A stretch of 36,871 bases of DNA, taken from contig CAMAWF010000027.1 of the NCBI GenBank assembly GCA_945861895.1, positions 1 to 36,871 on the forward strand. Reading direction: 5' to 3'. The position numbers and the translations under genes are program-made. The DNA is from Rhizobium sp. Q54. GTDB taxonomy: Bacteria; Pseudomonadota; Alphaproteobacteria; Rhizobiales; Xanthobacteraceae. The notes under the pieces are model-generated. The model worked only from the letters and a program-made list of their open reading frames with translations, was not told the DNA's origin and did no database searches. Of this stretch, positions 8,985-36,871 are shown one piece after another (the stretch's first letter is position 1; the number at the start of each line of letters is the position of its first letter).

Positions 8985-9017
8985 ATCAATGAGAAACACA
9001 TCGGGAAACGCCAACGC

Positions 9018-11969: not shown

Positions 11970-12790
11970 AGCCCGCGCGCTTCGACTACGTCCGCGCCGA
12001 AACGCTGGCGCAAGTGCACGCGGTGCTGGCCGCCGAAGGCGGCGATGCGCGCGTCATCGCCGGCGGGCAGACGCTGCTGCCAATGCTCTCGATGCGGCTC
12101 GCGCGCCCGAAAGTCGTGGTCGACATCATGCGGCTTCCAGAACTGGCGGAAATTGCCGGCGATGGCGAGAACATCCGAATCGGGGCCGCCGTTACGCAAC
12201 AACAATTGCTGGCCTGGCCGGAACTTGCCCGCACGGTGCCGCTGCTCGCCGCCGCACTGCCCTGGGTCGGCCACGCACAAACCCGAAGCCGCGGCACGGT
12301 CTGCGGCTCGCTCGCGCATGCCGATCCGAGCGCCGAAATCCCGCTCGCGCTGCTGGCGCTTGAAGGAACACTCGAATTGTCGTCGCGCCGCCGCCGCCGC
12401 GTCCCGGCAGCGCAATTTTTTACCGGGCTGATGTCGACCGCCCGCGCCGACGACGAGATGATCGAGGCCGCGATTTTCCCCTGCCGGCGCGCGGGCCACG
12501 GCTATGCGTTCCAGGAATTCGGCCGGCGGCACGGCGATTTCGCCATTGTCGCCTGTGCTGCCGTTGCGCATGCGCGCGGCATCAGGCTTGCCGTTGGCGG
12601 CGTCGCCGACCGGCCCATCGCCCGCGATTATTCAGATATCGACGGCGCGGCGCTCGACGACGCGCTCGATGAATTCGCCTGGCAGCTCGACGCGCGCGAC
12701 GATCTGCACGCCACTGCGAGCTATCGCCGCGGACTTGTCCGCCGGCTTGGCCGCGCGACCATCGAGGAGGCGCGCCGATGCCGCGCCTGA
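11966..12790 (+). CDS. hmfB: FAD-binding subunit of molybdenum hydroxylase, likely 2-furoyl-CoA dehydrogenase FAD subunit
   Basis: A 274-residue CoxM-like flavoprotein. The FAD pyrophosphate is held by AGGQTLLPMLSMR (residues 32-44) and by TRSRGTVCGSLAHADPSAE (residues 106-124). The start is a GTG at 11966 with GGAGG five bases upstream, overlapping the large-subunit stop by 4 bases. It passes electrons from the Fe-S subunit to an unknown acceptor. The length is normal for the family (about 260-290). Confidence 0.82.
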   Translation: MKPARFDYVRAETLAQVHAVLAAEGGDARVIAGGQTLLPMLSMRLARPKVVVDIMRLPELAEIAGDGENIRIGAAVTQQQLLAWPELARTVPLLAAALPWVGHAQTRSRGTVCGSLAHADPSAEIPLALLALEGTLELSSRRRRRVPAAQFFTGLMSTARADDEMIEAAIFPCRRAGHGYAFQEFGRRHGDFAIVACAAVAHARGIRLAVGGVADRPIARDYSDIDGAALDDALDEFAWQLDARDDLHATASYRRGLVRRLGRATIEEARRCRA

Positions 12791-13287
12791 GCGCTGAAGC
12801 CCGTCACCGCGTCGCTTTCCAGCTCAATGGCCGGCCGGTCGCGGCGGAAGCCGAGCCGCGCATGCTGCTCACCGACTTCCTGCGCCATACGCTCGGCATG
12901 ACCGGCACCCATGTCGGCTGCGAGCATGGCGTCTGCGGCGCCTGCACGGTGCAGATCGACGGCGTGCCGGCGCGCGCCTGCCTCACGCTTGCGGTGCAAA
13001 TCGAGGGCGCGCAGGTGCGCACCGTCGAAGGGCTCGGCCCCGAACCCGGCCGGTTGTCGGTGCTGCAAGAAGCATTCCGCCGTCATCACGCGCTGCAATG
13101 CGGATTTTGCACCGCCGGCATCCTGATGTCGCTCGACTATTATCTGCGCGCCAATCCCGACCCTGGCGAGGCTGCGCTGCGCGAATTCCTCGGCGGTCAT
13201 CTGTGCCGCTGCACCGGATATGTGCCGATCCTGGCCGCGGCACTCGACGCCGCGCGAAGACTGCGGGAGCCGCCACCGCATGCTTGA
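12778..13287 (+). CDS. hmfC: 2Fe-2S subunit of molybdenum hydroxylase, likely 2-furoyl-CoA dehydrogenase iron-sulfur subunit
   Basis: A 169-residue CoxS-like protein carrying two [2Fe-2S] sites. The plant-type ferredoxin cluster is bound by Cys48, Cys53, Cys56 and Cys68 (CEHGVCGACTV then AC), and the second cluster by Cys108, Cys111, Cys143 and Cys145 (CGFCTAG and CRCTGY). All eight ligands are present. The ATG overlaps the FAD-subunit gene by 13 bases and its stop overlaps the ligase start by 8, so translation is coupled. It relays electrons from the molybdenum centre to FAD. Confidence 0.88.
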   Translation: MPRLSAEARHRVAFQLNGRPVAAEAEPRMLLTDFLRHTLGMTGTHVGCEHGVCGACTVQIDGVPARACLTLAVQIEGAQVRTVEGLGPEPGRLSVLQEAFRRHHALQCGFCTAGILMSLDYYLRANPDPGEAALREFLGGHLCRCTGYVPILAAALDAARRLREPPPHA

Positions 13288-14839
13288 CCTCGGCAACAGT
13301 CTTCTGGCGAGCGTCGAGCGCGATCCGGATGCGCTCGCGATCGTCGACGGCAAAATGCGGCTGACCTATGCCGAATGGTATCGCCGCATCTGCGCGCTTG
13401 TCGCGGGGCTGGATGAGCTCGGCCTCGCGCCGGGCGATCATCTTCTCACCGTGCTGCAAAACCGCTGGGAAGCCGCGACCATCCATTGGGCGTGCCAGCT
13501 CGCGGGCATCATCGTGACGCCGATCAACTGGCGCGCCAGCGCCGACGAGATCGATTTCTGCGTCGAGAATTCGGAGGCAAAGGCCGTCGTCTACGAGGAG
13601 GTGTCGGCGGCGGCTGTCGCGCAATCGACCGCCGCGCAGTCGAGGCGGCGGATCGCACTCGACGCGCCAAAACACAGCGAGATCGGATGGGCCGCGCTCT
13701 TCGAGCGCACGGCGCCCAACGTGCAACCAAGGGCCGGCGCCGAGGCCTGGTCGATCATGCTGTACACTTCGGGGACCACGGCGCGGCCAAAAGGCGTTCC
13801 GCGACGCCAGCGCACCGAGCGCGCCGCGGCGCTCGCCCATGTCGCGCAAAATCTTTACCGGCATGGCGAGCGCACATTGGGCATCATGCCGCTGTATCAC
13901 ACCATGGGTGTGCGCTCGCTGCTGGCGATGTCGCTGATCGGCGGCGCCTTCGTGTGCCTGCCGCGCTTCGACGCGGCAAAGGCGCTTGAGCTGATCGCCG
14001 ACGAAAAAATCACCAATCTTTATCTCGTGCCGACGCTTTACCATGACCTCCTGCAGCATGAGCGCTTTGCGAAGGCAGACGTGAGCTCGGTCCGCAAGCT
14101 TGGATTTGCCGGCGCGCCCATGACCGACGGCCTGCTCAAGCAACTCCAGGCCGCGTTCAAGCCGGAACTTTTCGTCAATCATTACGGCTCGTCGGAAATC
14201 TACACCTTCACCGTCGCGCAGAATGCGCCGGCAAAGCCTGGCTCCGCCGGACGCGCCGGCATCAACCAGCGCATCCGTGTGGTGAAGCTCGGCGCCGCCT
14301 CGCCCGACGATGCCGCCGCGACCGGCGAGGAAGGCGAGATCATCGCGCTTCTGGCGGGCGATGAATCCTTCGAGGGCTATTGGCGCCGGCCCGAATCCGA
14401 CGCCAAAGCCTTGCGGCAGGGCTGGTATTTCACCGGCGACACCGGCTATCTCGACGCCGACCGCGATTTATTCGTCACCGGCCGGGTCGATGACATGATC
14501 ATCACCGGCGGGGAAAATGTGTCGCCGGTCGAGATCGAGAGCTGCCTTTCGCTGCATCCGGCCGTGCTGGAAGTCGCGGTCGTGGGTCTGCCCGACGAGC
14601 GATGGGGCAAGATTATCGCGGCGTTTATCAAGCGGCGCACACCCGTCGGGCATGACGAATTCGACCAGTTCTGCCGAACCTCCGGCCTTGCCAATTTCAA
14701 ACGTCCGCGCCGCTACGTTTTCGTCGCGGAGATTCCGAAATCTCCGGTCGGAAAGCTGCTGCGCCGCAAGCTGATCGCCGGCGAATACGACCATGAGAAA
14801 GTCCCCGCCAGTCCACACCACCGAGGAACCGCAGCATGA
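13280..14839 (+). CDS. hmfD: Acyl-CoA ligase, likely 2-furoate-CoA ligase
   Basis: A 519-residue ANL-superfamily adenylating enzyme. The phosphate loop is YTSGTTARPKGVP (from residue 162), the A5 motif is NHYGSSEIY, the ATP/ribose motif is GWYFTGDTGYLD, the hinge is VTGRVDDMIITGGENV and the catalytic lysine is Lys492 in PVGKLLRRK. The ATG at 13280 is chosen because MLDLGNSLLASVERDPDALA matches the family N-terminus as I remember it; the frame is open further upstream inside hmfC. It overlaps hmfC by 8 bases. Between the hydroxylase subunits and a crotonase-type hydrolase, its likely role is ATP-dependent formation of 2-furoyl-CoA. Benzoate-like acids are the main alternative. Confidence 0.75.
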   Translation: MLDLGNSLLASVERDPDALAIVDGKMRLTYAEWYRRICALVAGLDELGLAPGDHLLTVLQNRWEAATIHWACQLAGIIVTPINWRASADEIDFCVENSEAKAVVYEEVSAAAVAQSTAAQSRRRIALDAPKHSEIGWAALFERTAPNVQPRAGAEAWSIMLYTSGTTARPKGVPRRQRTERAAALAHVAQNLYRHGERTLGIMPLYHTMGVRSLLAMSLIGGAFVCLPRFDAAKALELIADEKITNLYLVPTLYHDLLQHERFAKADVSSVRKLGFAGAPMTDGLLKQLQAAFKPELFVNHYGSSEIYTFTVAQNAPAKPGSAGRAGINQRIRVVKLGAASPDDAAATGEEGEIIALLAGDESFEGYWRRPESDAKALRQGWYFTGDTGYLDADRDLFVTGRVDDMIITGGENVSPVEIESCLSLHPAVLEVAVVGLPDERWGKIIAAFIKRRTPVGHDEFDQFCRTSGLANFKRPRRYVFVAEIPKSPVGKLLRRKLIAGEYDHEKVPASPHHRGTAA

Positions 14840-15639
14840 CGAGCATGACATTCACCGACCCGCGCCTTGCCGCGCTTGACGGTTTCCGGGTGGAGATCGC
14901 CGCCGAACGCCGGCGCGCCGACATTATTCTCGAGCGGCCGCCGTTCAATATCATTTCAATGCCGCAACGCGATCAGTTGAGGCTGGTTTTCGAAACGCTG
15001 GACGAGGATGCGCGCGTGCGGGTGATCGTGCTGCGCGCCGCCGGCGAGCATTTCTCCAGCGGCGGCAATATCAAGGGATTCATGGAGGCATCGCCCGAGC
15101 ACGTCTCGAAGCTGGCCTGGAATATCGCGGCGCCCGCCCGCTGCGCCAAGCCGGTGATCGCCGTCAACCGCGGCTTTGCTTTCGGCGTCGGCTTCGAAAT
15201 CTCGCTTGCTTGCGATTTCCGCATCGTCTCCGAAACCTGCTTCTACGCCTTGCCGGAACAGAAGCTGGGTCAAATTCCCGGCTCGGGCGGCTCGGCGCGG
15301 CTGCAAAAGATCGTCGGCATCACGCGCACAAAGGATATCGTGATGCGCTCAAAACGCATCTCCGGCAAGCAGGCCTGCGATTGGGGGATCGCGACCGAAT
15401 GCGTGCCCGACGGCAAGCTTGAGGCGGCGACCGATGCGCTGGTCGAGGAACTGCTGACGTTCTCGCCGCTCGCACAACGCACGGCCAAGAAGCTGCTCAA
15501 CGACACCGAGGACTCCACCCTTTCCATCGCGATCGAGCTTGAAGGCCACTGCTACAGCCGGTTGCGCCAGTCCGACGATTTCCGCGAAGGTGTCGAGGCA
15601 TTTCATGCCAAGCGGCCGGCCAAATTCGGCGGAAGCTGA
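14836..15639 (+). CDS. hmfE: Crotonase-fold hydrolase, likely 2-oxoglutaryl-CoA hydrolase
   Basis: A 267-residue enoyl-CoA hydratase/isomerase family protein. The oxyanion-hole strands are HFSSGGNIKGF and FAFGVGFEISLACDFRI, and YALPEQKLGQIPGSGGSARL follows. The segment SPLAQRTAKKLLNDTEDS and the C-terminal RSDDF-like tail match my memory of HmfE, the enzyme that releases 2-oxoglutarate and CoA at the end of furoate breakdown. The start overlaps hmfD as ATGA with GAGGAA seven bases upstream. It is the last gene of the operon and faces a convergent operon. The bases 15640-15710 between them show no clear terminator. A dedicated hydratase or dehydratase role cannot be excluded from sequence alone. 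Confidence 0.75.
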   Translation: MTSMTFTDPRLAALDGFRVEIAAERRRADIILERPPFNIISMPQRDQLRLVFETLDEDARVRVIVLRAAGEHFSSGGNIKGFMEASPEHVSKLAWNIAAPARCAKPVIAVNRGFAFGVGFEISLACDFRIVSETCFYALPEQKLGQIPGSGGSARLQKIVGITRTKDIVMRSKRISGKQACDWGIATECVPDGKLEAATDALVEELLTFSPLAQRTAKKLLNDTEDSTLSIAIELEGHCYSRLRQSDDFREGVEAFHAKRPAKFGGS

Positions 15640-23083: not shown

Positions 23084-23608
23084 TCAGGCCGTGGCGCTTG
23101 GTTCCAGCAGCGCGAGAAGGCCCGCGAGAAGCTGGATCGGCGACGGCGGGCAACCTCGGATGTGCAGATCGACGGGCACGACATCGGAGACGCCGCCTGC
23201 GACCGCATAACTGCCGGCAAAGAGACCGCCATCGACCGCACAATCGCCGACCGCGACAACCCATTTGGGGTCCGGCGTCGCATTATGAGTGCGCTGCAGC
23301 GCCTCACGCATGTTTTTGGTCACCGGGCCGGTGACCAGCAGCACATCGGCATGGCGCGGCGAGGCGACGAAGCGAAAGCCAAATCGTTCGAGATCGTAAA
23401 ATGCATTGTTGAGTGCGTGGATCTCCAGCTCGCAGCCATTGCACGAGCCGGCATCGACCTCGCGGATCGAGAGCGAGCGCCCCAGCCGGCGATGCGCCGC
23501 GCGGTCCACTTTTTTGGCAAGCTCGGCGAGCGCCGCGTCTGCGCTCTCCGGCGGCGCTTCCGTCAGCGGGCTTCGAACCAGACCCTCAAACAGGATTTTT
23601 CGCATCAT
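23084..23608 (-). CDS. hyfI: Hydrogenase-4-like small subunit (HyfI/NuoB-like)
   Basis: A 174-residue Fe-S protein. The four ligands of a proximal [4Fe-4S] cluster are present: Cys56 and Cys59 in DAGSCNGCELEIHAL, Cys123 in VAVGDCAVDGG and Cys153 in IRGCPPSP. ADVLLVTGPVTKNM is the conserved middle segment. It is the size of HyfI/HycG and NuoB, and lacks the long C-terminal multi-cluster domain of uptake hydrogenase small subunits. It follows the large-subunit gene by 6 bases and closes the operon. It would sit on the cytoplasmic arm next to HyfG and pass electrons to or from it. Complex I NuoB is excluded by the context, which has no NuoE, F or G. Confidence 0.85.
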   Translation of the reverse strand: MMRKILFEGLVRSPLTEAPPESADAALAELAKKVDRAAHRRLGRSLSIREVDAGSCNGCELEIHALNNAFYDLERFGFRFVASPRHADVLLVTGPVTKNMREALQRTHNATPDPKWVVAVGDCAVDGGLFAGSYAVAGGVSDVVPVDLHIRGCPPSPIQLLAGLLALLEPSATA

Positions 23609-23614
23609 GAAGCC

Positions 23615-25126
23615 CTAAAGATCATGCCCCGAATAGGAGCAGTTGAACGACTTGTTGCACAAGGGAAAGTCGGCGACGATATTGCCTTCGATCGCGGCTT
23701 CCAGCAGCGGCCATTGGAACCACGACGCATCACGCAGATGACAGCGCGCGATATGTCCGCCGTCGATACGCACCCAGGCGAGAACATCGCCACGGAAGGC
23801 TTCGACCAGACCGAGACCCTCGCCTTTCGCGCCGGCCATATCGATGCCGGTCCGCATCGGGCCATCCGGCAACCGATCCACGATCTGGTCGATCAATGAC
23901 AGGCTCTGCTCCACCTCGCGGATGCGGACCCAGACGCGCGCATTGACGTCTCCGCCCTCAAAGACGGGCACATCGAAAGTCAGCTGATCGTAAGGCGCGT
24001 AGCCGGGCGCGCGCCGCGCATCGAACGCACGGCCACTGGCGCGCCCGACATAGCCGCCGGCGCCGAATTGCCGCACCAGCGATGGCTGCACGATTCCCGT
24101 CGTGACAGTGCGGTCCTGCAACGACGCGGTGTTGTCGTAAAGCTCGATCAGAGCCGGGAATATGCGCCGGATTTCGGCAAGCAGCATTTGGATATCGGCG
24201 GAACCGTGGAGAAAGATTCCGTCAGCGACGCCGCCGGGCACGATGCGGTCCATCATCAGGCGGTGGCCGAAGCAGGAATTTGCCGCGCGCAAAACGCGCT
24301 CGCGCAGAATGCTGCATTGCGCATGCATCAGGCTGAACGACGCATCGTTGCAGATGGCGCCGATGTCGCCGAAGTGATTGGCGAGGCGTTCAAGCTCCGC
24401 CATCAGCGCGCGCAGGTAGATGGCGCGCGGCGGAACCGTCACCTCGAGCGCAGCCTCGACGGCGTGGGCGAAAGCGAGCGCATAGGCAACCGTGCTGTCG
24501 CCGGAGGTGCGGCCGGCAAGCTGCGCGGCCTTTTCAAGCGTCGCGCCCGCCATGAGCGACTCAATGCCCTTGTGGACGTAGCCCAGCCGCTGCTCGAGCC
24601 GCACGACTGTCTCGCCGTTGGCGGTGAAGCGAAAATGCCCGGGCTCGATGATGCCGGCATGCACCGGGCCGACCGGGATCTGGTGCAAGCCATCGCCTTC
24701 CGCCAACAAGAAAGCGTACGGCATCCGCTCCGATGGCCCGGCGCCACGCTCGCCGAGCGGATGCGTCACATCCCAGCAGCCGTGGTCGAGCCACGGCCGC
24801 GTGTCCGGCAATCCAATCGGTTGCAATCCATAGAGGCTCGCGATTGCGCGCTCAAGACGCATCGCAGGCGGGTGCAGCGCGCTTACCGACGGAAATTCTC
24901 CGCCCGGACATTCGCAGGTGACAACCGCAATCTCGTTTGTTGGCGCCGCCAAAATCGCCATATGCACCGCACCGGCCTCGCCCCAAAGTCCGAGCAGCGT
25001 AGCCTGCCCATCCACGAGCTGCCGGGCTGTGAATTGCCACCCTTCCTCGCCAACGACCACGCGCGGCCACGGCCGATGGGCTTCGACCCTACGGGCTCCC
25101 GGCAGCGTGTCGATCAGCCCTGGCAT
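23615..25126 (-). CDS. hyfG: Hydrogenase-4-like large subunit (HyfG-like) lacking the Ni-Fe cysteine ligands
   Basis: A 503-residue protein. Residues about 1-135 resemble the NuoC/30-kDa domain and 150-503 the NuoD/49-kDa/hydrogenase large subunit domain, the fusion typical of HycE/HyfG. LGYVHKGIESLM (from 181) and LMAELERLANHFGDIG (from 241) are family landmarks. Where active hydrogenases have R-x-C-G-x-C, this protein has LAGRTSGDS (203-211), with no cysteine. Where they have D-P-C-x-x-C at the C-terminus, it has PLCNKSFNCSYSGHDL (488-503), so two cysteines remain (490, 496) but with the wrong spacing. It therefore should not bind Ni-Fe. This pattern matches energy-converting hydrogenase-related (Ehr) complexes. 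The partner and reaction are unknown. Confidence 0.85.
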   Translation of the reverse strand: MPGLIDTLPGARRVEAHRPWPRVVVGEEGWQFTARQLVDGQATLLGLWGEAGAVHMAILAAPTNEIAVVTCECPGGEFPSVSALHPPAMRLERAIASLYGLQPIGLPDTRPWLDHGCWDVTHPLGERGAGPSERMPYAFLLAEGDGLHQIPVGPVHAGIIEPGHFRFTANGETVVRLEQRLGYVHKGIESLMAGATLEKAAQLAGRTSGDSTVAYALAFAHAVEAALEVTVPPRAIYLRALMAELERLANHFGDIGAICNDASFSLMHAQCSILRERVLRAANSCFGHRLMMDRIVPGGVADGIFLHGSADIQMLLAEIRRIFPALIELYDNTASLQDRTVTTGIVQPSLVRQFGAGGYVGRASGRAFDARRAPGYAPYDQLTFDVPVFEGGDVNARVWVRIREVEQSLSLIDQIVDRLPDGPMRTGIDMAGAKGEGLGLVEAFRGDVLAWVRIDGGHIARCHLRDASWFQWPLLEAAIEGNIVADFPLCNKSFNCSYSGHDL

Positions 25127-25140
25127 GATGTTTTCCGGCT

Positions 25141-26580
25141 CTATCCGAGTAGTTTCGCAACATTCTGGAACCAGGCTACCAGTGCCGGCGGCATGTAGAT
25201 GCCGGCCATGAACACCAGCGCGAGGTGCGCGAACATCGGCACATAGGAGGCGTCCGACTTCGCGACCGGGCCGCGCGGCTCACCGAAACAGATCGTGTTG
25301 AGGCGCAGAAACAGTGCGGCCAAAGCGAGCAGGATGCCGAACACGAGGATGATCGCCAGCAAAGGCTCGCGCGCAAAGGTCGAGGTCACCACCAGGAACT
25401 CGCTCATGAATATGCCGAGCGGCGGCAGCCCGGCGATGGCGACGACGCCCAACACCAGGCCCCAACCGAGCACCGGATTGGTTTCGGTCAGCCCACCCAT
25501 GTCGGCGATGCGCTGCGTTCCCTTCACCTGCGCGATGTGACCGACGGCGAAAAAAATCGCCGACTTCGTCAGCGAATGCATCGTCATATGCAGCAGCCCG
25601 GCAAAATTGGCCAGCGGGCCGCCCATGCCAAAAGCAAAGACGATGATGCCCATGTGTTCGATCGAGGAATAGGCGAACATACGCTTGATGTCGCGCCGGC
25701 GGAACAGCATGAAGCTCGCGAAGACAACCGAGATCAGCCCCATCGTCACCATCAACGAACCCGGCGCGATTGCCACCGGGTTCACCGCCAGCAGCATCTT
25801 GAAGCGCAGCAACGCATAGAGCGCAACATTGAGAAGAAGACCCGAGAGCACGGCTGAAATGGGGGTAGGACCCTCCGCATGGGCGTCCGGCAGCCAGGCG
25901 TGCAGAGGCGCGAGCCCCACTTTGGTGCCGTAGCCGAGCAGCAGAAACACGAAGGCGACGTTGAGCAGCGCCGGGTCGAACGCCGCCGCGCGCGTGATCA
26001 GCACGGTCCACACCATGGCGTCGAGGCCTTCGCCGAACACCGGCAGCGCCGCCATGTAAACCAGGATGGTTCCAAACAGCGCCAGCGCGATGCCGACGCT
26101 GCCAAGGATGAAATATTTCCATGCCGCTTCCAGCGCCTCGTGAGTTCGGTAGATGCCGACCATAAGCACCGTCGTCAGCGTGGCGATTTCGATAGCGACC
26201 CACATCACGCCGATATTGTTGGCGACCAGCGCGAGGTTCATCGCGAACATCAGCACCTGATACATCGCGTGATAAAAGCGCAGGAAACTCGGCTTCAACC
26301 GGCCGGATTCAAGTTCGTGCCCGATATAGCTCGCGCTGAACACGCTGGTGGTAAAGCCGACAAAGGTGGTGAGCACGATGAAAACGACGTTGAGATCGTC
26401 CACCAGCAGATACGGTCCCGGCTGCGGCCGATCGTAGAACAGCGAGAGGGCGGCAAGCAACGTGAGCAGCGTTGCCAGCACGTTGAGCCGCGCGCCGATC
26501 CGGTAGCCCGGCAGCATTGCAAGCAGAGCCGCCGCCGTTATCGGAATTATCAGGACCGCTGTCACCGCGTTGAAGATCAT
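25141..26580 (-). CDS. hyfF: Hydrogenase-4-like antiporter-type membrane subunit (HyfF-like)
   Basis: A 479-residue membrane protein with about fourteen helices of the Mrp/NuoL-M-N family. The proton-path charges are visible: Glu in MWVAIEIATLTTV, Lys in LGYGTKVGLAPLHAWLPDAH, and His/Lys in HMTMHSLTKSAIFF. ATG 26580 is chosen because it overlaps the hyfE stop as ATGA and gives a family-like N-terminus (MIFNAVTAVLIIPITAAALL). The frame is open far upstream but that part is antisense-like sequence inside hyfE. It would move H+ or Na+ in the membrane arm. Confidence 0.88.
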   Translation of the reverse strand: MIFNAVTAVLIIPITAAALLAMLPGYRIGARLNVLATLLTLLAALSLFYDRPQPGPYLLVDDLNVVFIVLTTFVGFTTSVFSASYIGHELESGRLKPSFLRFYHAMYQVLMFAMNLALVANNIGVMWVAIEIATLTTVLMVGIYRTHEALEAAWKYFILGSVGIALALFGTILVYMAALPVFGEGLDAMVWTVLITRAAAFDPALLNVAFVFLLLGYGTKVGLAPLHAWLPDAHAEGPTPISAVLSGLLLNVALYALLRFKMLLAVNPVAIAPGSLMVTMGLISVVFASFMLFRRRDIKRMFAYSSIEHMGIIVFAFGMGGPLANFAGLLHMTMHSLTKSAIFFAVGHIAQVKGTQRIADMGGLTETNPVLGWGLVLGVVAIAGLPPLGIFMSEFLVVTSTFAREPLLAIILVFGILLALAALFLRLNTICFGEPRGPVAKSDASYVPMFAHLALVFMAGIYMPPALVAWFQNVAKLLG

Positions 26581-27239
26581 CGCCGCTCCCCACGGAAGCG
26601 GTCGAGCGCGCTTATATCCACCGTGTCGAAGCGCTCGCGGATGCGGAACAGGAAGATGCCGATCACGATGAAAGCGATCAGGATCGAGAAGGCGACGCTG
26701 ATTTCCACCACCAGCGGCATCCCCTTGGCGCCGGTGGCGGCGAGCACGAGCCCGTTCTCCAGCGACATGAACCCGATCACCTGGCTCACCGCGTTGCGCC
26801 GCGTCACCATCATCAACAGACCGATCAGCACCACCGAGAGAGCGAAGGCGAGGTCTTCGCGCGCCAGCGGGTCGGCGCCCGGCGTCACCCGCAGCATGAC
26901 CACCATCGCTAGCGCGACGAGGCCGATTCCGGCCAGCATCGTAAGGCCGACGCCGACGACATTCTCGATCTCGCGATGAATGCCGAGCCGCACGATAATC
27001 CTGTGCAATACCACCGGGATTACGATCGCCTTGAAAACCAGCGCGATCAGCGCGGTGATGTAGAGATGCGGGGCCGCCTGGACATAGGCTTGCCAGGCCA
27101 CCGACAGCGCCAGCACCAGCGCGTGCAGCGCGAACATGTTGAGCAGCGCCGAAAGCCGGTCCTGATAGAGCTGCATGAAGCTCACCAGTACAAGCGAGCC
27201 GGCGAGCATATGCGCGATGTCGAAGACCAAACCCTGCAT
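26577..27239 (-). CDS. hyfE: Hydrogenase-4-like membrane subunit (HyfE-like)
   Basis: A 220-residue protein with about six helices. YVQAAPHLYITALIALVFKA and RRNAVSQVIGFMSLENGLVL match the HyfE family. The latter resembles NuoK, with a Glu in a helix (SLENGLVLAA). It starts one base inside the hyfC stop and overlaps hyfF by 4, so the membrane-arm genes are translationally coupled. It ends with a cytoplasmic charged tail (RIRERFDTVDISALDRFRGE). Confidence 0.86.
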   Translation of the reverse strand: MQGLVFDIAHMLAGSLVLVSFMQLYQDRLSALLNMFALHALVLALSVAWQAYVQAAPHLYITALIALVFKAIVIPVVLHRIIVRLGIHREIENVVGVGLTMLAGIGLVALAMVVMLRVTPGADPLAREDLAFALSVVLIGLLMMVTRRNAVSQVIGFMSLENGLVLAATGAKGMPLVVEISVAFSILIAFIVIGIFLFRIRERFDTVDISALDRFRGERR

Positions 27240-28195
27240 CAGAAGCTCCTCGAGACGAAGCGCAGCAGCGTCGCCAGCAGTGCAAGCATCAATGCCGCGC
27301 CGAGAAACTCGGGCACGCGGAACACGCGCATCTTGGCGATCGCGGTTTCGAACATTGCGAGCAGGAAGCCGCCGACCGCAAGCTTGCCGATATAAGTGAG
27401 CGCGCCGATCGCGAGCGCCTGCGGCCCGGCCTCGGTCGTGCCCATGCCCCAGGGGGCGAACAGGCAGGCGATCAGCGAGACGTAAAGCAACAGCTTGAGC
27501 GAGGCGGAAAGTTCGATCAGCGCGAGATGCCGTCCGGAATATTCCAAAATCATCGCCTCGTGCACCATGGTGAGCTCAAGATGCGTCGCCGGGTTGTCGA
27601 CCGGGATGCGCGCGTTCTCCGCGATCGCCACCATGATGAGCGCGATGAGCCCGAGGCCGAGCGAGACGCGCAATCCCACTTCCGATGAGTTCATGAATGC
27701 GGACATGGTCGAGAGCTGGGTCGAGCCTGCGATCAGCGCCAGCATGAACACGATCATCAGCATGGCGGGCTCGGCGAGCGAAGCGATCATCACCTCGCGG
27801 CTCGAGCCGATGCCGCCGAAGCTGGTGCCGACGTCGAGCCCGGCCAAGGCCAGGAAGAATCGCGCGCTGCCGAGCAGCGCAATGATCGCGATCAGGTCTG
27901 CCGACCAGCTAAACAGCAGACCGGTGCGGAAAGTCGGGACCAATGAGAGAGCAACCCAGGTGGTCGCGAAGACAAGATACGGAACAACGCGGAACAACCA
28001 CGATGCACTCTGCGCCAGCACGACGTCCTTGCGCATCAGCCGAATGAGATCGCGGTACGGCTGAAGCAGCGGCGGTCCTTGCCGGCGGACCAGCCGCGCC
28101 TTGATTTTACGCACGAATCCGGTGAGCAGCGGACTGAGCAACAGCACCAGCAGCATCTGCGCGCCCTGGATGGCGACATCGACGATCACGGCCAT
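27239..28195 (-). CDS. hyfC: Hydrogenase-4-like membrane anchor subunit (HyfC/NuoH-like)
   Basis: A 318-residue protein of the NuoH/HycD family with about eight helices. The conserved cytoplasmic loops are present: RRQGPPLLQPYRDLIRLMRK, and AENARIPVDNPATHLELTMV followed by HEAMILEYSGRHLALIE. These acidic and basic residues form the link between the Fe-S arm and the membrane arm in complex I relatives, so coupling parts appear intact although HyfG has lost Ni-Fe. It overlaps hyfB by 10 bases. Confidence 0.9.
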   Translation of the reverse strand: MAVIVDVAIQGAQMLLVLLLSPLLTGFVRKIKARLVRRQGPPLLQPYRDLIRLMRKDVVLAQSASWLFRVVPYLVFATTWVALSLVPTFRTGLLFSWSADLIAIIALLGSARFFLALAGLDVGTSFGGIGSSREVMIASLAEPAMLMIVFMLALIAGSTQLSTMSAFMNSSEVGLRVSLGLGLIALIMVAIAENARIPVDNPATHLELTMVHEAMILEYSGRHLALIELSASLKLLLYVSLIACLFAPWGMGTTEAGPQALAIGALTYIGKLAVGGFLLAMFETAIAKMRVFRVPEFLGAALMLALLATLLRFVSRSF

Positions 28196-30195
28196 GATGC
28201 AATCACCAAAAGCAGGATGACGAGCGCCGCGAATACGAGACTAAGGTACTGACGGATCGATAGAAATTGCAGCCCATTGAGGCGTTCGGCGGTGAGCATC
28301 ACAGCGCCGGCGATCGGTGTGTAGAGCATGTCCCAGATCAGGTCGCGTAGCTCTACGCTCATCCGCGCCGGGCCCGGATCGCCCGGTTTCGGCATAACTA
28401 CTTGTTCGCGCGCGCGAAATACCAGCGTTCCGAACACCCGCCGGATCGGCTGGGCGAAGCTGCTGGCGGTATATTGCGTCGCCGGGCTTGCATCCGGATA
28501 ACCGCAATCCCACGCCGGCGCGCGGCGCAATTTGTCGGACGCCAGCCGGTGGATGGCGAAGGCGGCGAGCGAACCGGACATGAAGATGAAGAAAAAAACC
28601 AGCAGACCGTTGTACGAACTGCGGCTTTCCGCGACCGGGACGATCGACAGCCACTCGACGCCGATCTGCACCGGCATGCGGGCGCCGACCAGGCTGCGCA
28701 CCACCGGGGCCAACGTATCGATAAACAGACCAGGCAGAACGCCGACAATAAGACAGAACGCCGCGCAGGCGAACATGGCGGCAAGCGAGAAGCGATCTAC
28801 CTCCCGCGCCTGCTCGGCCGCCGGCGTGCGCGGCCGGCCGAGAAAAGCGATGCCGAAGGCACGCACGAAGCAGGCGGCAGCGAGCGCGGCCGACAAGGCG
28901 AGCAGCGCGCCGACCGCAGGAACCAGGAACTTCAAGCCCCAGGACGGCAGTTGCGGGCTTAACAGGATCGCCTGGAAGATCAGCCATTCCGATACGAAGC
29001 CGTTGAACGGCGGCAGCGCCGAGACGGCGATACACCCGATCAGCATGACGAAAGCGGTCTGCGGCATCCGATGGATGAGCCCGCCGAGACGCTCTATGTT
29101 GCGCTCGCCGGTGGCGGTGAGCACGGCGCCCGCCCCGAAGAACAACAGGCTCTTGAACAGCGAATGGTTGAATACGTGCAGCAGTCCGGCGGTGAGCGCG
29201 AGCGCCGCCGCCAACGGCATCCCATGCGCCTTGAAAGAAAGCGCGAGGCCAAGCGCGACAAAGATAAGCCCGACATTCTCGATCGTGCTGTAGGCAAAGA
29301 TACGTTTGAGGTCGCGCTCCATCAGTGCATAGAGCACGCCCATGACCGCGCTGGCGGCTCCGATGGTGAGCACGGGAATGCCCCACCACCACGCCGGTTC
29401 GCCAAGCAGATCGAACACGATGCGCACAAAGCCGTAGACGGCAACTTTAGTCATCACGCCGCTCATCAGCGCGGAGACGTGACTTGGCGCGGCTGGATGC
29501 GCAAGCGGCAGCCAGATGTGCAGCGGAACCAAGCCGGCCTTCGAGCCGGCGCCGATGAGCGCGAGGATCAGCACCAGCGCCACAAGCCCGGCCGACGGAT
29601 GCGCTGCACGGATCGCGGCGAACGTGTAGTCCCCGTCCGGACCGGCCAGCAGGCCGAATGCAAGCAGCAGCGTGAGCGTACCGAAGCTCGCCATGATGAG
29701 GTAGACATAGCCGGCATGGACATTTTCGCGCACGCGGTGATGCGCCATCACCAGCGCCCACGACGACAGCGACATGAACTCCCAGGAAATGAGGAAGGTG
29801 AAAGCATCATCGGCGAGCACGACGAGATTCATGCCGGCGAGAAATGCGGGGTAGAACGGCAGCACTCGCTGCGGCGCCTGCTCGTGGCGTCCGTAACCCA
29901 GCGCGTACAGACTGGCCGCGGCAATGCCAAGATCGACCACGGCAAGAAAGAACGATGAAAGCGTATCTATGCGGAAATGCGTACCGAGCCACGGCAGTCC
30001 GAGCGGCAGCGTCATGCTCACGGGATCAGCCGCACCAAGCAGATGCCCGATTGCAGCAAACAACAAAATCAGCGAGCCGATAAGGCTTGCCCCGTAAACG
30101 ATCTGCGCGGCAACCGATGCGCGTCCTATGACCACCGCAAGCACCGTGACAGCCAGCAAACCGGCGATGCAGTTCAAAGCAATGATTAATGTCAT
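28186..30195 (-). CDS. hyfB: Hydrogenase-4-like antiporter-type membrane subunit (HyfB-like)
   Basis: A 669-residue membrane protein of the NuoL/M/N family. FLISWEFMSLSSWALV carries the TM5 Glu, GSKAGLVPLHIWLPLAHP the TM7 Lys, and VFNHSLFKSLLFFGAGAV the TM8 His and Lys. The C-terminal about 160 residues include a cytoplasmic stretch with WDCGYPDASPATQYTASSFA, as in HyfB/HycC, before a last helix. It is the first structural gene of the operon and overlaps the XRE regulator by 4 bases. It is longer than HyfF because of the C-terminal extension. Confidence 0.9.
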   Translation of the reverse strand: MTLIIALNCIAGLLAVTVLAVVIGRASVAAQIVYGASLIGSLILLFAAIGHLLGAADPVSMTLPLGLPWLGTHFRIDTLSSFFLAVVDLGIAAASLYALGYGRHEQAPQRVLPFYPAFLAGMNLVVLADDAFTFLISWEFMSLSSWALVMAHHRVRENVHAGYVYLIMASFGTLTLLLAFGLLAGPDGDYTFAAIRAAHPSAGLVALVLILALIGAGSKAGLVPLHIWLPLAHPAAPSHVSALMSGVMTKVAVYGFVRIVFDLLGEPAWWWGIPVLTIGAASAVMGVLYALMERDLKRIFAYSTIENVGLIFVALGLALSFKAHGMPLAAALALTAGLLHVFNHSLFKSLLFFGAGAVLTATGERNIERLGGLIHRMPQTAFVMLIGCIAVSALPPFNGFVSEWLIFQAILLSPQLPSWGLKFLVPAVGALLALSAALAAACFVRAFGIAFLGRPRTPAAEQAREVDRFSLAAMFACAAFCLIVGVLPGLFIDTLAPVVRSLVGARMPVQIGVEWLSIVPVAESRSSYNGLLVFFFIFMSGSLAAFAIHRLASDKLRRAPAWDCGYPDASPATQYTASSFAQPIRRVFGTLVFRAREQVVMPKPGDPGPARMSVELRDLIWDMLYTPIAGAVMLTAERLNGLQFLSIRQYLSLVFAALVILLLVIASWP

Positions 30196-30446
30196 GTCGC
30201 GACCTTTTTGAGCCGCACGCCCCGGCCGCCGCCAGCACTGGCCGTATTGTCGGAGATGAGTTCGAGGCCGGCAGATTCGAACGCCGCCACAAGTTTCATA
30301 AGCGAATCGACATTGCCGCGGACGACCCCGTCGCTCGACTCCATCCGCTGTATCGTCGGCAGAGAGAGGCCTGAGCGCTGCGCGAGCTCACGCTGATCGA
30401 TTCCGAGCAGCGCTCTCACCGCCCGCATTTGAGATCCGGTCATCAT
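30192..30446 (-). CDS. Small XRE-family (Cro/C1-type HTH) regulator heading the hyf-like operon
   Basis: An 84-residue protein made almost only of a helix-turn-helix domain: QMRAVRALLGIDQRELAQRS, then GLSLPTIQRMESSDG, which is the recognition helix region. A short tail ends AGLELISDNTASAGGGRGVRL. It starts with ATGATG at 30446/30443 with no clear Shine-Dalgarno, so it may be leaderless or weakly expressed. The stop overlaps hyfB by 4 bases, so it is the first gene of the operon and probably controls it. It contrasts with the sigma-54 activator HyfR of E. coli. Confidence 0.85.
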   Translation of the reverse strand: MMTGSQMRAVRALLGIDQRELAQRSGLSLPTIQRMESSDGVVRGNVDSLMKLVAAFESAGLELISDNTASAGGGRGVRLKKVAT

Positions 30447-30480: not shown

Positions 30481-30768
30481 CTATTGATGCTTACTTTGAA
30501 CAGAACGAAATTTCAACAGCAATGAGGATGTGTCCTCAAGCCGCGGATAACAGCAACCTAGATGCCGCGCATCGGCTGGCTTGCCACTCAACCAGACCGC
30601 CCACAAGGCGACGGCAGCGGTAATTACAATGACGATGCTTTCAAGCGCGTCGGAATAAAGGGCGACGCTGCCTGTGATGCGATACGCAAGATACTTGAGC
30701 GCCATCACCACCATGGCGACGACGATGCTACAACTTTCGGTTATCAGAAGACGATCGAAGCGACGCAA
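30481..30768 (-). pseudogene. Truncated N-terminal remnant of a cation diffusion facilitator (CDF) metal transporter
   Basis: A 95-residue frame whose first about 69 residues are a good CDF N-terminus: two helices (SCSIVVAMVVMALKYLAYR, then ITGSVALYSDALESIV) and the loop GKPADARH. Full CDF proteins (about 290-320 residues) continue here with a G-H-x-K-x-E motif. This one switches to unrelated sequence (LGCCYPRLEDTSS) and stops. Helices 3-6 and the cytoplasmic domain are missing and are not found nearby. It looks like a deletion remnant. The flanking bases 30769-30882 hold no recognisable gene. Confidence 0.75.
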
Positions 30769-31628: not shown

Positions 31629-32498
31629 CTACTGGCGAATCCGTAAATATATGAACCAGTAAACGCCGCCGACCAGCCCACCTCCGCCAATGATATTTCC
31701 GATGGTGACGGGGATAAGACTGGAGAAGAATACCGGCCACGTCAGAACTCCATAATCGGCAGAGTTGACTCCAATTTGGGTCCACAGGTCCGCCGGTCCC
31801 CAAGCTTTCATGAACAAGCCGAGTGGTATGAGATACATGTTGGCGACCGAATGCTCGAAACCCGCCACGACAAATGCCGAAACAGGAAAAAGCACGGCAA
31901 GTACCTTGTCGCTCGTTGTCCGAGCGCCAAAGGCAAGCCACACGGCGAGACACACCAGTACGTTACATAGACTGCCAAGGAAGAGAGCGTGATCGAAAGG
32001 TAACGTCGCCTTGTCTAGCGCGAGCTTGAGAGCAACATTTGCGACGGCACCTTGTCCGGATAGGTACTGTCCGGAAAGGAATACGAGCATCGCAGTTCCG
32101 ATCGCACCAATGAAGTTGCCGATGTAAACGATGAGCCACGCCCTCAACATCTCGTGCAGTCGGACCTTGCCGGCGGCCCAAGCCATGACCATCAGGGTGT
32201 TCCCGGTGAAGAGTTCAGCTCCGCCCAAAATGACAAGTATGAGTCCAAGGCAGAACGCGATGCCGGCAAGCAGTCGGCTCAATCCGAAGGGAAGAACGCC
32301 GTCTGCTCCCGCCAGGACGGTGGTCGCAAACATGGCACCAAGAGCGATGAAAGCGCCAGCGAGGATTGCCAGGGCCAAGAGGCTCAGGACGTCCAGCCTC
32401 GTCTTCTGAATACCGATCGCTTCGGCCTTCTCGGCGATTTCCGTTGGCAACAGCGCATCGATGCCGCGATTGTTAGGATTTGTGCTGCCGATTGTCAT
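31629..32498 (-). CDS. focA: Formate/nitrite transporter family channel (FocA-like)
   Basis: A 289-residue FNT-family channel with six helices. GGAELFTGNTLMVMAWAAGK holds the conserved threonine loop (Thr98), and GFEHSVANMYLIPLGLF holds the central histidine (His216) that gates anion or acid passage in FocA. The start is clear, with GGAGG about seven bases before the ATG. FNT pentamers pass formate, nitrite or related small anions. In E. coli focA/focB accompany formate hydrogenlyase-type genes, and this copy lies 1.2 kb upstream of the hyf-like operon, but separated by three other coding units. Substrate choice between formate and nitrite is not readable here. Confidence 0.88.
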   Translation of the reverse strand: MTIGSTNPNNRGIDALLPTEIAEKAEAIGIQKTRLDVLSLLALAILAGAFIALGAMFATTVLAGADGVLPFGLSRLLAGIAFCLGLILVILGGAELFTGNTLMVMAWAAGKVRLHEMLRAWLIVYIGNFIGAIGTAMLVFLSGQYLSGQGAVANVALKLALDKATLPFDHALFLGSLCNVLVCLAVWLAFGARTTSDKVLAVLFPVSAFVVAGFEHSVANMYLIPLGLFMKAWGPADLWTQIGVNSADYGVLTWPVFFSSLIPVTIGNIIGGGGLVGGVYWFIYLRIRQ

Positions 32499-32896: not shown

Positions 32897-33262
32897 TTAG
32901 CGTTCGAGCGTCTTCAAGAAGTCGATGAGGTCGCCGACTTGGCCAGGATCGAGGCGGAATTCCGGCATGCTGGGATGACCGGTGACGATCCCTTCCCCCA
33001 GCGCCTCCTCAAGACTTTCAACCGGATAGCGCAAATGCAGTGTCCGGAAAGGAGGCGCAATTTTCAACGGGCTTGGGCTGACCTTGTCGGTGGAATGACA
33101 CTGCGCGCAATGAACGCGCGCGAAGATGAGCCCGCGTTGCGCGCTGGGGTTTTGCGCCATGGCTCCTGCGGGAATAAAAAGGACAAGCGCGGCAATGACG
33201 GCGGCTTTCACGAGAGCCGCCTCATTTAATAATCGCCACCGCATATCGCCTTGGCTTTTCAT
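32897..33262 (-). CDS. Small c-type cytochrome
   Basis: A 121-residue protein with a signal peptide (hydrophobic core about residues 17-32, cleavage near AMA-QNP). It has one haem site CAQCH (Cys52, Cys55, His56) and a likely axial Met99 in GHPSMPEF, giving a single-haem class I cytochrome with a mature size near 85 residues. ATG 33262 is used; an ATG six codons later is possible. It would carry electrons in the periplasm. It follows a DUF6455 protein and a Spy-like protein on the same strand. No partner oxidase or dehydrogenase is adjacent. Confidence 0.88.
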   Translation of the reverse strand: MKSQGDMRWRLLNEAALVKAAVIAALVLFIPAGAMAQNPSAQRGLIFARVHCAQCHSTDKVSPSPLKIAPPFRTLHLRYPVESLEEALGEGIVTGHPSMPEFRLDPGQVGDLIDFLKTLER

Positions 33263-34331: not shown

Positions 34332-35186
34332 TTAGGCCCCAATCTCAAATTGCCGTTCGATTTCGCTCATGGATGCATTTGTGGGGACGGGGACGGACAC
34401 CGGCGCGCGATCGCCGCGATAGAGCACGCCAAGATTGAAGCCGTCCTCGGCGAGCACCTGGGCCGTTGCCGCCGCACGGTCCGGCGCGGCCGGCATGGCG
34501 GCCGGCCGCACCATTTTCTTCCACTCCCCTTGTTCCGGCCGGAACATCACACAGGGGCTCAAAACTTCGATGAAGGCAAAGCCCGGCCAGGCGATACCTT
34601 CGACGATCAAATCGGCAAGACCCTGCGGGTCGCCGGCAAAACCGCGCGCCACGAAATTCGCGCCTGCGACAATCGCAAGCGCAAGCGGATTGAGCGGCCG
34701 CAGCCCGATGCCACCCGGCGCGATATCGCTGTCCCAGTCCGGTTCCGTCGTCGGCGATGGCTGCCCTTTGGTCATGCCGTACACCCGGTTGTCCATGACC
34801 AGGTAAAGCATGTCGACGTTGCGCCGGCAGGCGTGGATGAAATGATTGCCGCCGATCGAATAGCCGTCGCCGTCGCCTCCGACCGTGATGACTTCGAGAT
34901 CGGGGCGCGTCAGCTTGAGGCCGGTCGCCACCGCCAAGGCGCGGCCATGCACGCCATGAAAGCCGTAGCAGTTGGTGTAGGCCGGCAGGCGCGACGAGCA
35001 CCCGATACCCGATACCAGCACGACCTCGTGCGACGGCCGGCCATACGCCGCCAGCGCGCGCTCAAGCGCGGCAAGCACGCCATAATCGCCGCAGCCTGGA
35101 CACCAGATCGGGTGCGCGCCCGAGGAAAAATCCTTGGCCGCAAGCGCTTTCACGCAATGGGCTTCCGATGCGAGAGAGACGCTCAT
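34332..35186 (-). CDS. korB: 2-oxoacid:ferredoxin oxidoreductase beta subunit (KorB-like)
   Basis: A 284-residue subunit that binds thiamine diphosphate and one [4Fe-4S] cluster. The TPP motif is GGDGDGYSIGGNHF (from 103) with MDNRVYGMTKGQPSPTTEP, where K-G-Q-x-S-P-T is the family hallmark. Cluster cysteines are Cys29 and Cys32 (WCPGCGDYG), Cys63 (GIGCSSR) and Cys212 (LSPCVMF). GGAG precedes the ATG at 35186. It starts 12 bases after korA on the same strand. With KorA it converts 2-oxoglutarate (or another 2-oxoacid) and CoA to the acyl-CoA, reducing ferredoxin. Confidence 0.9.
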   Translation of the reverse strand: MSVSLASEAHCVKALAAKDFSSGAHPIWCPGCGDYGVLAALERALAAYGRPSHEVVLVSGIGCSSRLPAYTNCYGFHGVHGRALAVATGLKLTRPDLEVITVGGDGDGYSIGGNHFIHACRRNVDMLYLVMDNRVYGMTKGQPSPTTEPDWDSDIAPGGIGLRPLNPLALAIVAGANFVARGFAGDPQGLADLIVEGIAWPGFAFIEVLSPCVMFRPEQGEWKKMVRPAAMPAAPDRAAATAQVLAEDGFNLGVLYRGDRAPVSVPVPTNASMSEIERQFEIGA

Positions 35187-35198
35187 CGTAACGCTCCA

Positions 35199-36871
35199 TC
35201 AGGCGAGATAAGAGGCAATCTCGCTTGGCCGGAATGGCAGGGGTCCGGGTCGCGCGACGCTTTCCGCGCTCACCGGTATGGCCTTCTGACCAAGAAGATA
35301 ATGGTAGAGCTGCGCGCTGTGGTTCTGCTCGATCACGATGACGCGCCGCGCGCCATCGAGCGCGCGCGCCAGTGCATCGAGCGGCAGCGGCGCCAGCATT
35401 CGCAATCCGACGATGCGGACCGGATGTCCGGCCGCAGTGAGCCGCCGCGCCGCCTCGCGCGCGGGCCCGATGGTCGATCCGAATGCGATGACCGCCGTGT
35501 CGCCCGCTCCCCAGCTTTCGCCCCAAAGATCGCCGGGCTCGAAGCGCTGCAATTTCTTGGCGCGCTTGTTGATCTGCGCCACATGCGCGCCGGCGCCACT
35601 CGCCGGCAGACCGATCTCATTGTGGGTGAGGCCCTCGGCAACCCACTGCTGTCCGGGCGTGCCAGGCGACGGCATCGGCGTCACCGGATCGAAACCGATG
35701 GCATAGCGCTTGAACTGAGCGCCGGAAGCTGCGCCGTTGGTCCGGCGCTGCAACGGCTTCGGGCGCTTGCCGTCCGGATCGATCACCGCGAGCGTCTGCC
35801 CGAAAGCCTGATCGGAAAGAACGATGACCGGAAGTTGCAGGGATTCGGCGAGATAGACGGCGCGCTCCGCCGTCGAAATACAGTCGGCGATGGAGGTTGG
35901 CGCAAGCACGATGCGCGGAGCGTCGCCGTGGGCGCCGTGGATCGCGATATTGATGTCGCTCTGTTCGGTCTTCGAAGCAATTCCGGTGGAAGGTCCGGCA
36001 CGCATGACGTCGATCACCACGGCCGGTATCTCGGCGGCGACCGCCAGACCCAGCGTTTCGAGCATCAGCGAAAACCCCGGACCCGAGGTCACGGTCATCG
36101 AGGGCGTGCCGCCATACGACGCGCCGAGCACCATATTGATTGCAGCGAGTTCGTCCTCGGCCAGCACCAATCGCCCGCCCAGCTTCCGCAATTCGGGCGC
36201 CAGCCATTCGACCAGATCCGTCGCCGGCGTGATGGGATAACAGCCCACGAAGCGCACGCCACCGCGCAGCGCACCGAGCCCGATCGCCTGGTTGCCGGTG
36301 ATCAACCACCGGCCAGTCTTCTGCGGCCGTTCAAGCTTATAATTGAGACCAAGCTTCGCGCCGGCCATTGCACCTGCAGCAGCCGCAGCGGCATTCGCTT
36401 TGATGACCTCGGCGCCCTTGTCGCCCAATACCGCCTGGAGCGCCGCACCTACGTCCAATTCGGTTAGCCCTGCCAGCACGGCAACCGCAACCGCCGCGAA
36501 GATGTTGATATGCCGGCCGCGCAATGCCTTTTCGAGCCGCGTCAATTCCGGATCGCCCATCGGCAGGTCGATCGTGCGTGCCTTGGATTTGGCGATACCG
36601 GGCGGTATGGGGCCGGATTTCTTGTCGGCAATGAGGATGCTGTTTTCGTCCAGCGGAATTTCTGACGCGAACTGCTCGACCTTGTCCCAGTCGAGTGCGA
36701 CGAACATATCGAACCGGTCGGGCTGCGCTTCAATCGGAGTTGTGGAGATCTGAACCAATGCCGCCGCTTCGCCGCCGCGTACTTGCGGACCGAACAGTTG
36801 CGACATCAATCCATAATAGCCGGCGTGGGCGGCGGCGCGCAGGAACACACTGCCCGCAGTCATGGCGCCGG
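35199..36871 (-). CDS. korA: 2-oxoacid:ferredoxin oxidoreductase alpha subunit with fused gamma domain (KorA-like), 5' end outside window
   Basis: About 556 residues are visible. Residues up to about 185 form the gamma domain (FGPQVRGGEAAALVQIS, FVALDWDKVEQFA), and the rest the alpha subunit (ITGNQAIGLGALRGGVRFVG, CYPITPATDLVEWLAPE, TVTSGPGFSLMLETLGLAVA). The frame stays open to the edge and the family normally has a G-S-G-G-x-G start about 20 residues before VMTAGSVF, so the ATG at 36863 is internal and the true start lies outside. It pairs with korB to make a two-subunit enzyme typical of aerobic and facultative alphaproteobacteria. Substrate choice is presumed 2-oxoglutarate. Confidence 0.9.
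   Translation of the reverse strand, partial: GAMTAGSVFLRAAAHAGYYGLMSQLFGPQVRGGEAAALVQISTTPIEAQPDRFDMFVALDWDKVEQFASEIPLDENSILIADKKSGPIPPGIAKSKARTIDLPMGDPELTRLEKALRGRHINIFAAVAVAVLAGLTELDVGAALQAVLGDKGAEVIKANAAAAAAGAMAGAKLGLNYKLERPQKTGRWLITGNQAIGLGALRGGVRFVGCYPITPATDLVEWLAPELRKLGGRLVLAEDELAAINMVLGASYGGTPSMTVTSGPGFSLMLETLGLAVAAEIPAVVIDVMRAGPSTGIASKTEQSDINIAIHGAHGDAPRIVLAPTSIADCISTAERAVYLAESLQLPVIVLSDQAFGQTLAVIDPDGKRPKPLQRRTNGAASGAQFKRYAIGFDPVTPMPSPGTPGQQWVAEGLTHNEIGLPASGAGAHVAQINKRAKKLQRFEPGDLWGESWGAGDTAVIAFGSTIGPAREAARRLTAAGHPVRIVGLRMLAPLPLDALARALDGARRVIVIEQNHSAQLYHYLLGQKAIPVSAESVARPGPLPFRPSEIASYLA

Follow-up and report, generated by a model that had tools for sequence, protein, structure and literature searches.

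A seven-gene Hyq (Ehr-type) operon in Rhizobium sp. Q54 that probably encodes a nickel-free, complex-I-like redox ion pump

The stretch of DNA analysed here (the window; all 36,871 nucleotides of contig CAMAWF010000027.1, from Rhizobium sp. Q54) carries a seven-gene operon on its minus strand (23084-30446), in which a small helix-turn-helix (HTH) regulator is followed by hyfB, C, E, F, G and I, with every frame intact. Judging from the encoded proteins, we consider it probable that these genes specify a six-subunit Hyq complex of the energy-converting hydrogenase-related (Ehr) kind, together with its own regulator, and that the complex works as a Ni-Fe-free, complex-I-like, proton-coupled redox ion pump. 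An earlier sequence-only reading of the window had assigned the genes to the Ehr kind, and the assignment stands: the subunit set is that of group 4, without the four Ni-Fe cysteines. The absence of Ni-Fe ligands is already published and the Ehr/Hyq class is known; the interest of the system lies instead in a clash, direct and open to test, between what the sequence shows (no known metal site) and what published mutants point to (H2 turnover).

Aligned with E. coli HycE, HyfG has Ser208, Ser211, Ser497 and Gly500 at the positions of Cys241, 244, 531 and 534, and lacks both ligand motifs of group 4 [NiFe] enzymes (RxCGxC and DPCxxC); it reads LAGRTSGDS at the first, and ends in FNCSYSGHDL as against LDPCYSCTDR in HycE. 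This agrees with what had been noted earlier from the letters of HyfG, that is, LAGRTSGDS and no D-P-C-x-x-C at the end. The possibility, raised at the same time, that the cysteines are present but shifted finds no match in the alignment, where Cys496 sits at the position of HycE Pro530, one residue ahead of the ligand position. A survey of 398 genomes of the phylum gave 63 Ehr large subunits (62 full-length and one cut by a contig end), whose residues were mapped to HycE; 59 of the 62 full-length rows have no cysteine at any of the four Ni-Fe positions, and three have one.

What occupies the pocket instead is conserved; the Ni-Fe site has been rebuilt and not merely lost. Asp210 is found in 63/63 rows, Ser208 in 61/63 and Asn260 in 60/63; Lys492 (a residue added to the pocket), Asn495 and Gly500 are each present in 62/62, with Ser211 somewhat looser (50/63). 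Working residues of HycE, including the proton-donating Glu193 and the canopy Arg478, are named in the excerpted text of the formate hydrogenlyase structure paper (PMC9474812); their equivalents are Glu161 (62/63 rows) and Arg445 (62/62), and the path residues H284, E437 and R395 are kept in 63, 62 and 62 rows, respectively. The canopy Asp529, called strictly conserved in that same text, is replaced by Asn495 in all 62 rows and by Asn in 81/81 rows of a second set, an exchange on which a limited literature search returned no paper. The earlier idea that only the catalytic metal had gone is thus too simple: the pocket has been reworked, canopy aspartate included.

Three further cysteines (Cys259, 490 and 496) are all present in 20/21 and 78/81 Hyq-type rows (two overlapping sets), and the triad is complete in 1/41 clade-B rows, on which count we reject a three-cysteine site as a general feature of Ehr complexes. 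The C-terminus of HyfG aligns with HycE residue 537, which we take to be the place of maturation cleavage, leaving no tail beyond the mature end of HycE. An AlphaFold model of HyfG has a good overall fold (predicted template modelling score, pTM, 0.85), and Foldseek places it nearest to HycE (7z0s_E).

In the remaining subunits, the cluster site is intact and most ion-path residues are kept. Cys56, Cys59, Cys123 and Cys153 of HyfI are invariant in 80 rows, with a CxxC and hydrogenase spacing, confirming the earlier remark that all four cluster cysteines are kept. HyfC preserves the equivalents of HycD R108, E130, E138, E189, E203 and E206 in 68/68 rows; HyfB has Glu139, Lys219, Lys250, His344, Lys348 and Glu403 in 67/67, with Lys219 being the lysine that is missing from HycC; and Glu161 and Glu179 of HyfE are invariant. 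HyfF has Asn in place of what we presume to be the lysine of transmembrane helix 8 (TM8) in other antiporter subunits, as is also the case for E. coli HyfF. We suggest that a substrate in the HyfG pocket would give electrons to, or take them from, the one cluster in HyfI, that HyfC may relay movement to HyfE, HyfF and HyfB, and that these three subunits would then carry out the transport of protons or sodium ions.

All six genes are under purifying selection in close relatives, the ratio of nonsynonymous to synonymous substitution rates (dN/dS) lying between 0.019 and 0.211 in 36 comparisons (each gene in six pairs drawn from relatives only, as the window has none near enough for such a comparison). 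Together with the conserved pocket, these values bear out the early judgement that the complex is not in decay. In a maximum-likelihood tree, a 100/100 branch separates the 62 full-length Ehr rows from the 12 HycE-type and two Nuo rows included; the tree was built without other group-4 hydrogenases and is therefore silent on where the Ni-Fe ligands were lost.

Searches for nickel maturation and for other hydrogenases point the same way. In the window's own genome (99.77% complete), hypD, the only Hyp gene sought, was not found, and neither was another Ni-Fe large subunit (by Ni-Fe family search) nor an Fe-Fe hydrogenase. More widely, hypD was not found in 44 of the 72 Ehr-carrying genomes tested (it is present in 17/38 and 11/34 of two sets), a sample that includes several incomplete metagenome-assembled genomes and nine genomes counted as carriers by score alone; no Fe-Fe hydrogenase was detected in any of 39 carriers at E 1e-10.

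The same seven genes, in the same order, make up hyqRBCEFGI of Azorhizobium caulinodans, published as an ‘endo-hydrogenase’ (PMC2650096, PMC2930871, PMC3357923). The published primer Hyq-Prox matches 1/296 genomes of the family, and the A. caulinodans stretch (L195) contains both Hyq-Prox and Hyq-Dist, along with the gene-derived portions of Hyq-B and Hyq-C. Its HyqG, HyqI and HyqC are 61%, 69% and 78% identical to the window proteins and the HTH protein that opens the operon is 66% identical over 67 residues; HyqG has RVSGDS and CNKSFNCSYAGHDL, with the CNKSFNC motif as in the window HyfG. In the sections of these three papers on which we draw, the authors initially named Hyq a Ni,Fe enzyme; that HyqG has no CxxC, and has three conserved cysteines (258, 491 and 497), has been in print since 2012 (PMC3357923), and the window carries this signature at Cys259, 490 and 496.

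The published genetics, taken from the same partial sources, are as follows. Deletion of hyq slowed N2-dependent growth of A. caulinodans (8.8 vs 7.2 h) and hardly affected growth on ammonium (2.4 vs 2.3 h). Nodule H2 evolution (umol/g/h) was 0.30 for the parent, 0.32 for a hupSL deletion, 0.36 for a hyq deletion and 27 for the double deletion, and acetylene reduction in hyq mutants was 25 as against 31 (PMC2930871). Full H2 recycling is said to survive a 20-gene hup/hyp deletion, and Rhodocista centenaria, which has hyq without hup/hyp, is also said to recycle H2, with data not presented (PMC2930871). At <1 uM O2, values of 61,000, 14,000 and 56,600 pmol H2 per 1e9 cells per min are given for the hup deletion, the hup hyq deletion and a nifK hup strain, respectively (PMC3357923). 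Our Ni-Fe family search of the A. caulinodans genome returned hyqG, two hydrogenase genes (hupL- and hupV-like, labels of our own) and, in the cluster of these two, a weak match of 28 bits; there is one hypD, ~8 kb past the hupL-like gene, and no Fe-Fe hydrogenase was found in this genome. We infer that the 20-gene deletion spans the only hypD. If the published data hold, H2 is consumed without a Ni-Fe or Fe-Fe enzyme. The sequence-only reading's statement that the reaction of such complexes is not known needs amending: mutants in an orthologous complex point to H2, the matter being unsettled (PMC2650096, PMC2930871, PMC3357923).

A. caulinodans Hyq is NifA-controlled and tied to N2 fixation on the authors' data, whereas the genome of the window has neither nifD nor hypD. 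A NifA/sigma-54 scan with a strict pattern gave sites in 6/62 upstream regions against 4.25 in shuffled sequence, and thus no excess; it found none upstream of the window operon, and the NifA box that the authors report for A. caulinodans also escaped it. The co-selection of hyq with N2 fixation proposed by the authors does not hold in our wider sample, in which 27/39 Ehr carriers, our own genome among them, are without nifD. We take NifA control and a role in N2 fixation to be traits of one species and not of the family.

The sequence-only reading had further proposed another electron partner, and this was not borne out. No redox partner gene recurs beside the operon in 80 loci of relatives or in 20 further loci, the widest neighbour cluster besides the HTH gene being a generic transporter ATPase (by its look; 24 loci). 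Co-occurrence across genomes was no more telling: KorA exceeds the cut-off in 18/38 carriers against 6/20 non-carriers, nifD is present in 12/39 against 3/20, hypD in 17/38 against 3/20, and the formate dehydrogenase (FDH) alpha subunit (at E 1e-150) in 9/12 against 112/138 genomes of the order. The non-carrier sets were unmatched for kinship (the 20 all come from the same family or order), and these counts therefore show only that none of KorA, FDH, nifD and hypD is required. Another electron partner may exist; neither the neighbourhoods nor the co-occurrence tests revealed one.

Several genes in the window itself might have been taken for such partners. A two-gene KorAB-type 2-oxoacid:ferredoxin oxidoreductase occupies 34332-36863 (minus strand) at the contig end, with a second KorA on another contig; a FocA-type formate channel lies upstream of the operon (31629-32498, minus strand), and near it is a small cytochrome c (32897-33262). 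No homolog of FocA, KorA, KorB or the cytochrome c was found in 100 other loci searched; we therefore take all three systems to be chance neighbours, and reject them as partners.

Saying this, a number of observations weigh against the pump as we have drawn it. The HyfG model is poor precisely at the pocket (predicted local distance difference test, pLDDT, <50 at 139-185, 338-342 and 480-503), and a read-through HyfG-HyfI model is no better there (pTM 0.67). HyfC lacks the equivalents of HycD E199, E201 and Y102 (Ala, His and Ala); the earlier claim that charged ion-path residues are kept holds for most of them. That ions would be pumped at all is deduced purely from conserved residues, the search for an electron partner found none and, should the H2 findings in print be sound, it is wrong to read the complex simply as a ‘non-hydrogenase’.

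As to the reaction, we infer two branches within the pump reading, with the remainder going to other substrates and to non-redox roles. On the first branch, to which we give tentative preference at something near an even chance, the complex would exchange electrons between quinone and a low-potential carrier in solution, either ferredoxin or flavodoxin, with ion movement coupled to the transfer and the H2 phenotypes being indirect or mistaken. The one-cluster design would leave that cluster to a soluble partner, and the lack of a dedicated redox partner gene adjoining the operon, across the 80 and 20 further loci, is what one expects of a general carrier. The pocket itself is less accommodating, being polar and having Ile160 and Gly209 in the places of His38 and Tyr87, given as complex I quinone residues in the excerpted text of PMC7684303; moreover, our searches identified no carrier, and the H2 loss from hup-negative nodules requires an H2 sink. 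The second branch, possible though on balance unlikely, makes the complex a nickel-free hydrogenase: an H2:quinone oxidoreductase that would run in either direction at a site of a new type, with coupling to the proton-motive force. Here the genetics carry the argument, in that nodule H2 is lost only when hup and hyq are both deleted and recycling is said to persist without hup/hyp in A. caulinodans and Rhodocista centenaria (PMC2930871), whilst the values at <1 uM O2 in hup-negative cells differ with and without hyq (PMC3357923); our own searches of A. caulinodans for the Ni-Fe and Fe-Fe hydrogenase families found nothing beyond the hup cluster and hyqG, the hydrogenase-type Glu161, Arg445 and CxxC cluster are kept, and the cysteine triad is complete in most Hyq-type rows. 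Ranged against this are the near-absence of the triad from clade B, the canopy Asn and the many carriers without nifD; to our knowledge, no nickel-free H2-activating site of such a kind is known. The published H2 genetics also come from one laboratory, which itself cites conflicting earlier reports by others of uptake lost in hup mutants; the table as published has no nifK hup hyq strain, the 14,000 left without hyq is of a source that the authors call uncharacterized, and a cell-free H2 assay was, in their words, ‘not at hand’ (PMC3357923, excerpted text). The boldest version would add Hyq to the hydrogenases as a fourth kind, one that pumps protons as it transfers electrons between H2 and quinone, needs no Ni-Fe, Fe-Fe or Hyp maturation, and has a Ser/Asp/Asn/Lys pocket and three conserved cysteines near a [4Fe-4S] cluster; this we regard as doubtful.

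Other explanations fare worse. A non-redox role, in ion or inorganic-carbon transport or as a scaffold, might draw on the SulP anion transporter that lies downstream of hyfI, in the operon direction, in seven Competibacter-type loci (L044, L051, L053, L058, L063, L069 and L079) and ahead of hyfB in an eighth (L075); with the four HyfI cluster cysteines invariant, we think it improbable. That an FDH feeds the complex, an idea proposed for other phyla (PMC6349859, in the text available), is very improbable here: the window has the FocA-type channel, and an FDH-alpha gene sits on another contig, but FocA does not recur in the other loci, FDH-alpha is no commoner among carriers (the counts given above), and three carriers of one genus have none at E 1e-150 (one of the three judged from its absence from a match list). 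That the complex is a Ni-Fe hydrogenase, either in decay or with its ligands displaced, is barely credible; Cys496, a single residue ahead of the ligand position, is what speaks for it, and the HycE alignments, the missing hypD, the lack of a tail past the mature end of HycE and the purifying selection in relatives refute it as far as sequence allows.

The features of the operon are collected in Table 1. Neighbouring hyf genes overlap or stand a few bases apart, and hyfF is given from its ATG start, an alternative longer TTG frame extending through hyfE. The sequence-only reading was right as to six genes matching hyfB, C, E, F, G and I, which are intact and lie on the minus strand in the order B-C-E-F-G-I, and its extent (23084..30195) holds for these six; the boundary does not, since the HTH gene overlaps hyfB, stands upstream of it in 58/64 testable relatives and is accordingly counted in the operon. 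It was also right that there is no ferredoxin subunit of the HyfA/HyfH type: the flanks of the operon in 81 loci, taken out to 4 kb where the contigs extend that far, contain 4332 frames of at least 80 amino acids, of which one has CxxCxxCxxxC, and that lies 3.2 kb off.

Table 1. Genes of the operon and pocket motifs of HyfG, with positions in the window
Feature	Position	Strand	Remarks
hyqR-like small HTH regulator, 84 aa	30192..30446	-	First gene of the operon; 4-base overlap with hyfB; HTH_3 (Pfam)
hyfB/hyqB, NuoL-like antiporter subunit, 669 aa	28186..30195	-	NCBIfam hydrogenase 4 subunit B, 888 bits (cut-off 667)
hyfC/hyqC, NuoH-like membrane anchor, 318 aa	27239..28195	-	NADHdh, 133 bits; most E-channel residues kept in 68/68 rows
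hyfE/hyqE, small membrane subunit, 220 aa	26577..27239	-	NCBIfam hydrogenase 4 membrane subunit, E 3e-24, under cut-off
hyfF/hyqF, NuoM-like antiporter subunit, 479 aa	25141..26580	-	NCBIfam hydrogenase 4 subunit F, 873 bits (cut-off 533)
hyfG/hyqG, large subunit of fused NuoC/D type lacking Ni-Fe ligands, 503 aa	23615..25126	-	Top match among solved structures: E. coli HycE, 7z0s_E
hyfI/hyqI, NuoB-like subunit with one hydrogenase-type [4Fe-4S] site (CxxC), 174 aa	23084..23608	-	Oxidored_q6, 118 bits
First HyfG pocket motif, R206-T-S-G-D-S211 (R-x-C-G-x-C in hydrogenases)	24494..24511	-	Coordinates computed by hand from the gene start
Second HyfG pocket motif, C490-N-K-S-F-N-C-S-Y-S-G-H-D-L503 (D-P-C-x-x-C-T-D-R in HycE)	23618..23659	-	Coordinates computed by hand from the gene start

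The relatives were collected by a scan of one genome per species, in which the best 80 of at least 583 stretches encoding a relative were taken as the locus set. The B-C-E-F-G-I order is found in 68 of these 80; the remaining 12 look like truncated contigs, and in some of them the HyfB query lands on its paralog HyfF. More distant relatives have another regulator beside the operon, with the look either of an XRE protein with a cupin domain (L126, L128, L129, L130 and L135) or of a ribbon-helix-helix protein (L123, L124, L125 and L134), Pfam confirming one of each (L126 and L124); the regulator is, then, exchanged between lineages. Carriers make up 12 of 150 genomes drawn from the order, and 43 plasmid records match at 60-80% identity (242 with any match, the weaker of which may be other relatives). 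In three genomes of one genus (L092-L094) a copy of the HTH gene is found past hyfI, oriented against the operon, and L054 and L072 have two consecutive HyfB-like frames within the operon. Six rhizobial loci (L029, L031, L049, L057, L070 and L074) have a protein gene 13-14 bases after hyfI, a DUF4365 protein in the one member scanned (L070); the SulP protein of L058 has Pfam Sulfate_transp plus STAS. In the window, the HTH gene is directly preceded upstream (30481-30768, minus strand) by a 95-residue piece of a cation efflux protein, covering 56 of 198 profile positions, which looks like a remnant; further away, genes on the plus strand (8955-15639) for a molybdenum hydroxylase with a CoxG domain, an FAD subunit, an AMP-ligase and an enoyl-CoA hydratase look like aromatic-acid metabolism.

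Either H2 is handled here in some new manner, or the published account is in error and nodule H2 recycling has been misattributed. Resolving the reaction would also show which pocket residues of the complex I superfamily can be exchanged with function kept.

Set beside known systems, the window complex shares group-4-like subunits without Ni-Fe ligands with other Ehr complexes, Ehr being a loose name, and the pocket features given here being those of the rows described above. With E. coli Hyc/Hyf it has in common subunit homology, a hydrogenase-type proximal cluster and the Glu193 and Arg478 equivalents, and differs in having neither Ni-Fe ligands nor HycB/F or HyfA/D/H, and in its canopy Asn. 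The MBS complex of P. furiosus is likewise a group-4 relative without a Ni-Fe site; it has a three-cysteine cluster and is said, in the excerpted text of PMC7684303, to be without the E21 proton residue (that of PMC9474812 notes one acidic residue on the E21-equivalent loop), whereas the window complex keeps four cysteines, with CxxC spacing, and the glutamate. In contrast to complex I, it is without the tandem cysteines and the N module and has a canopy Arg instead of Lys; with complex I it nonetheless shares homology to NuoB, CD, H, L and M.

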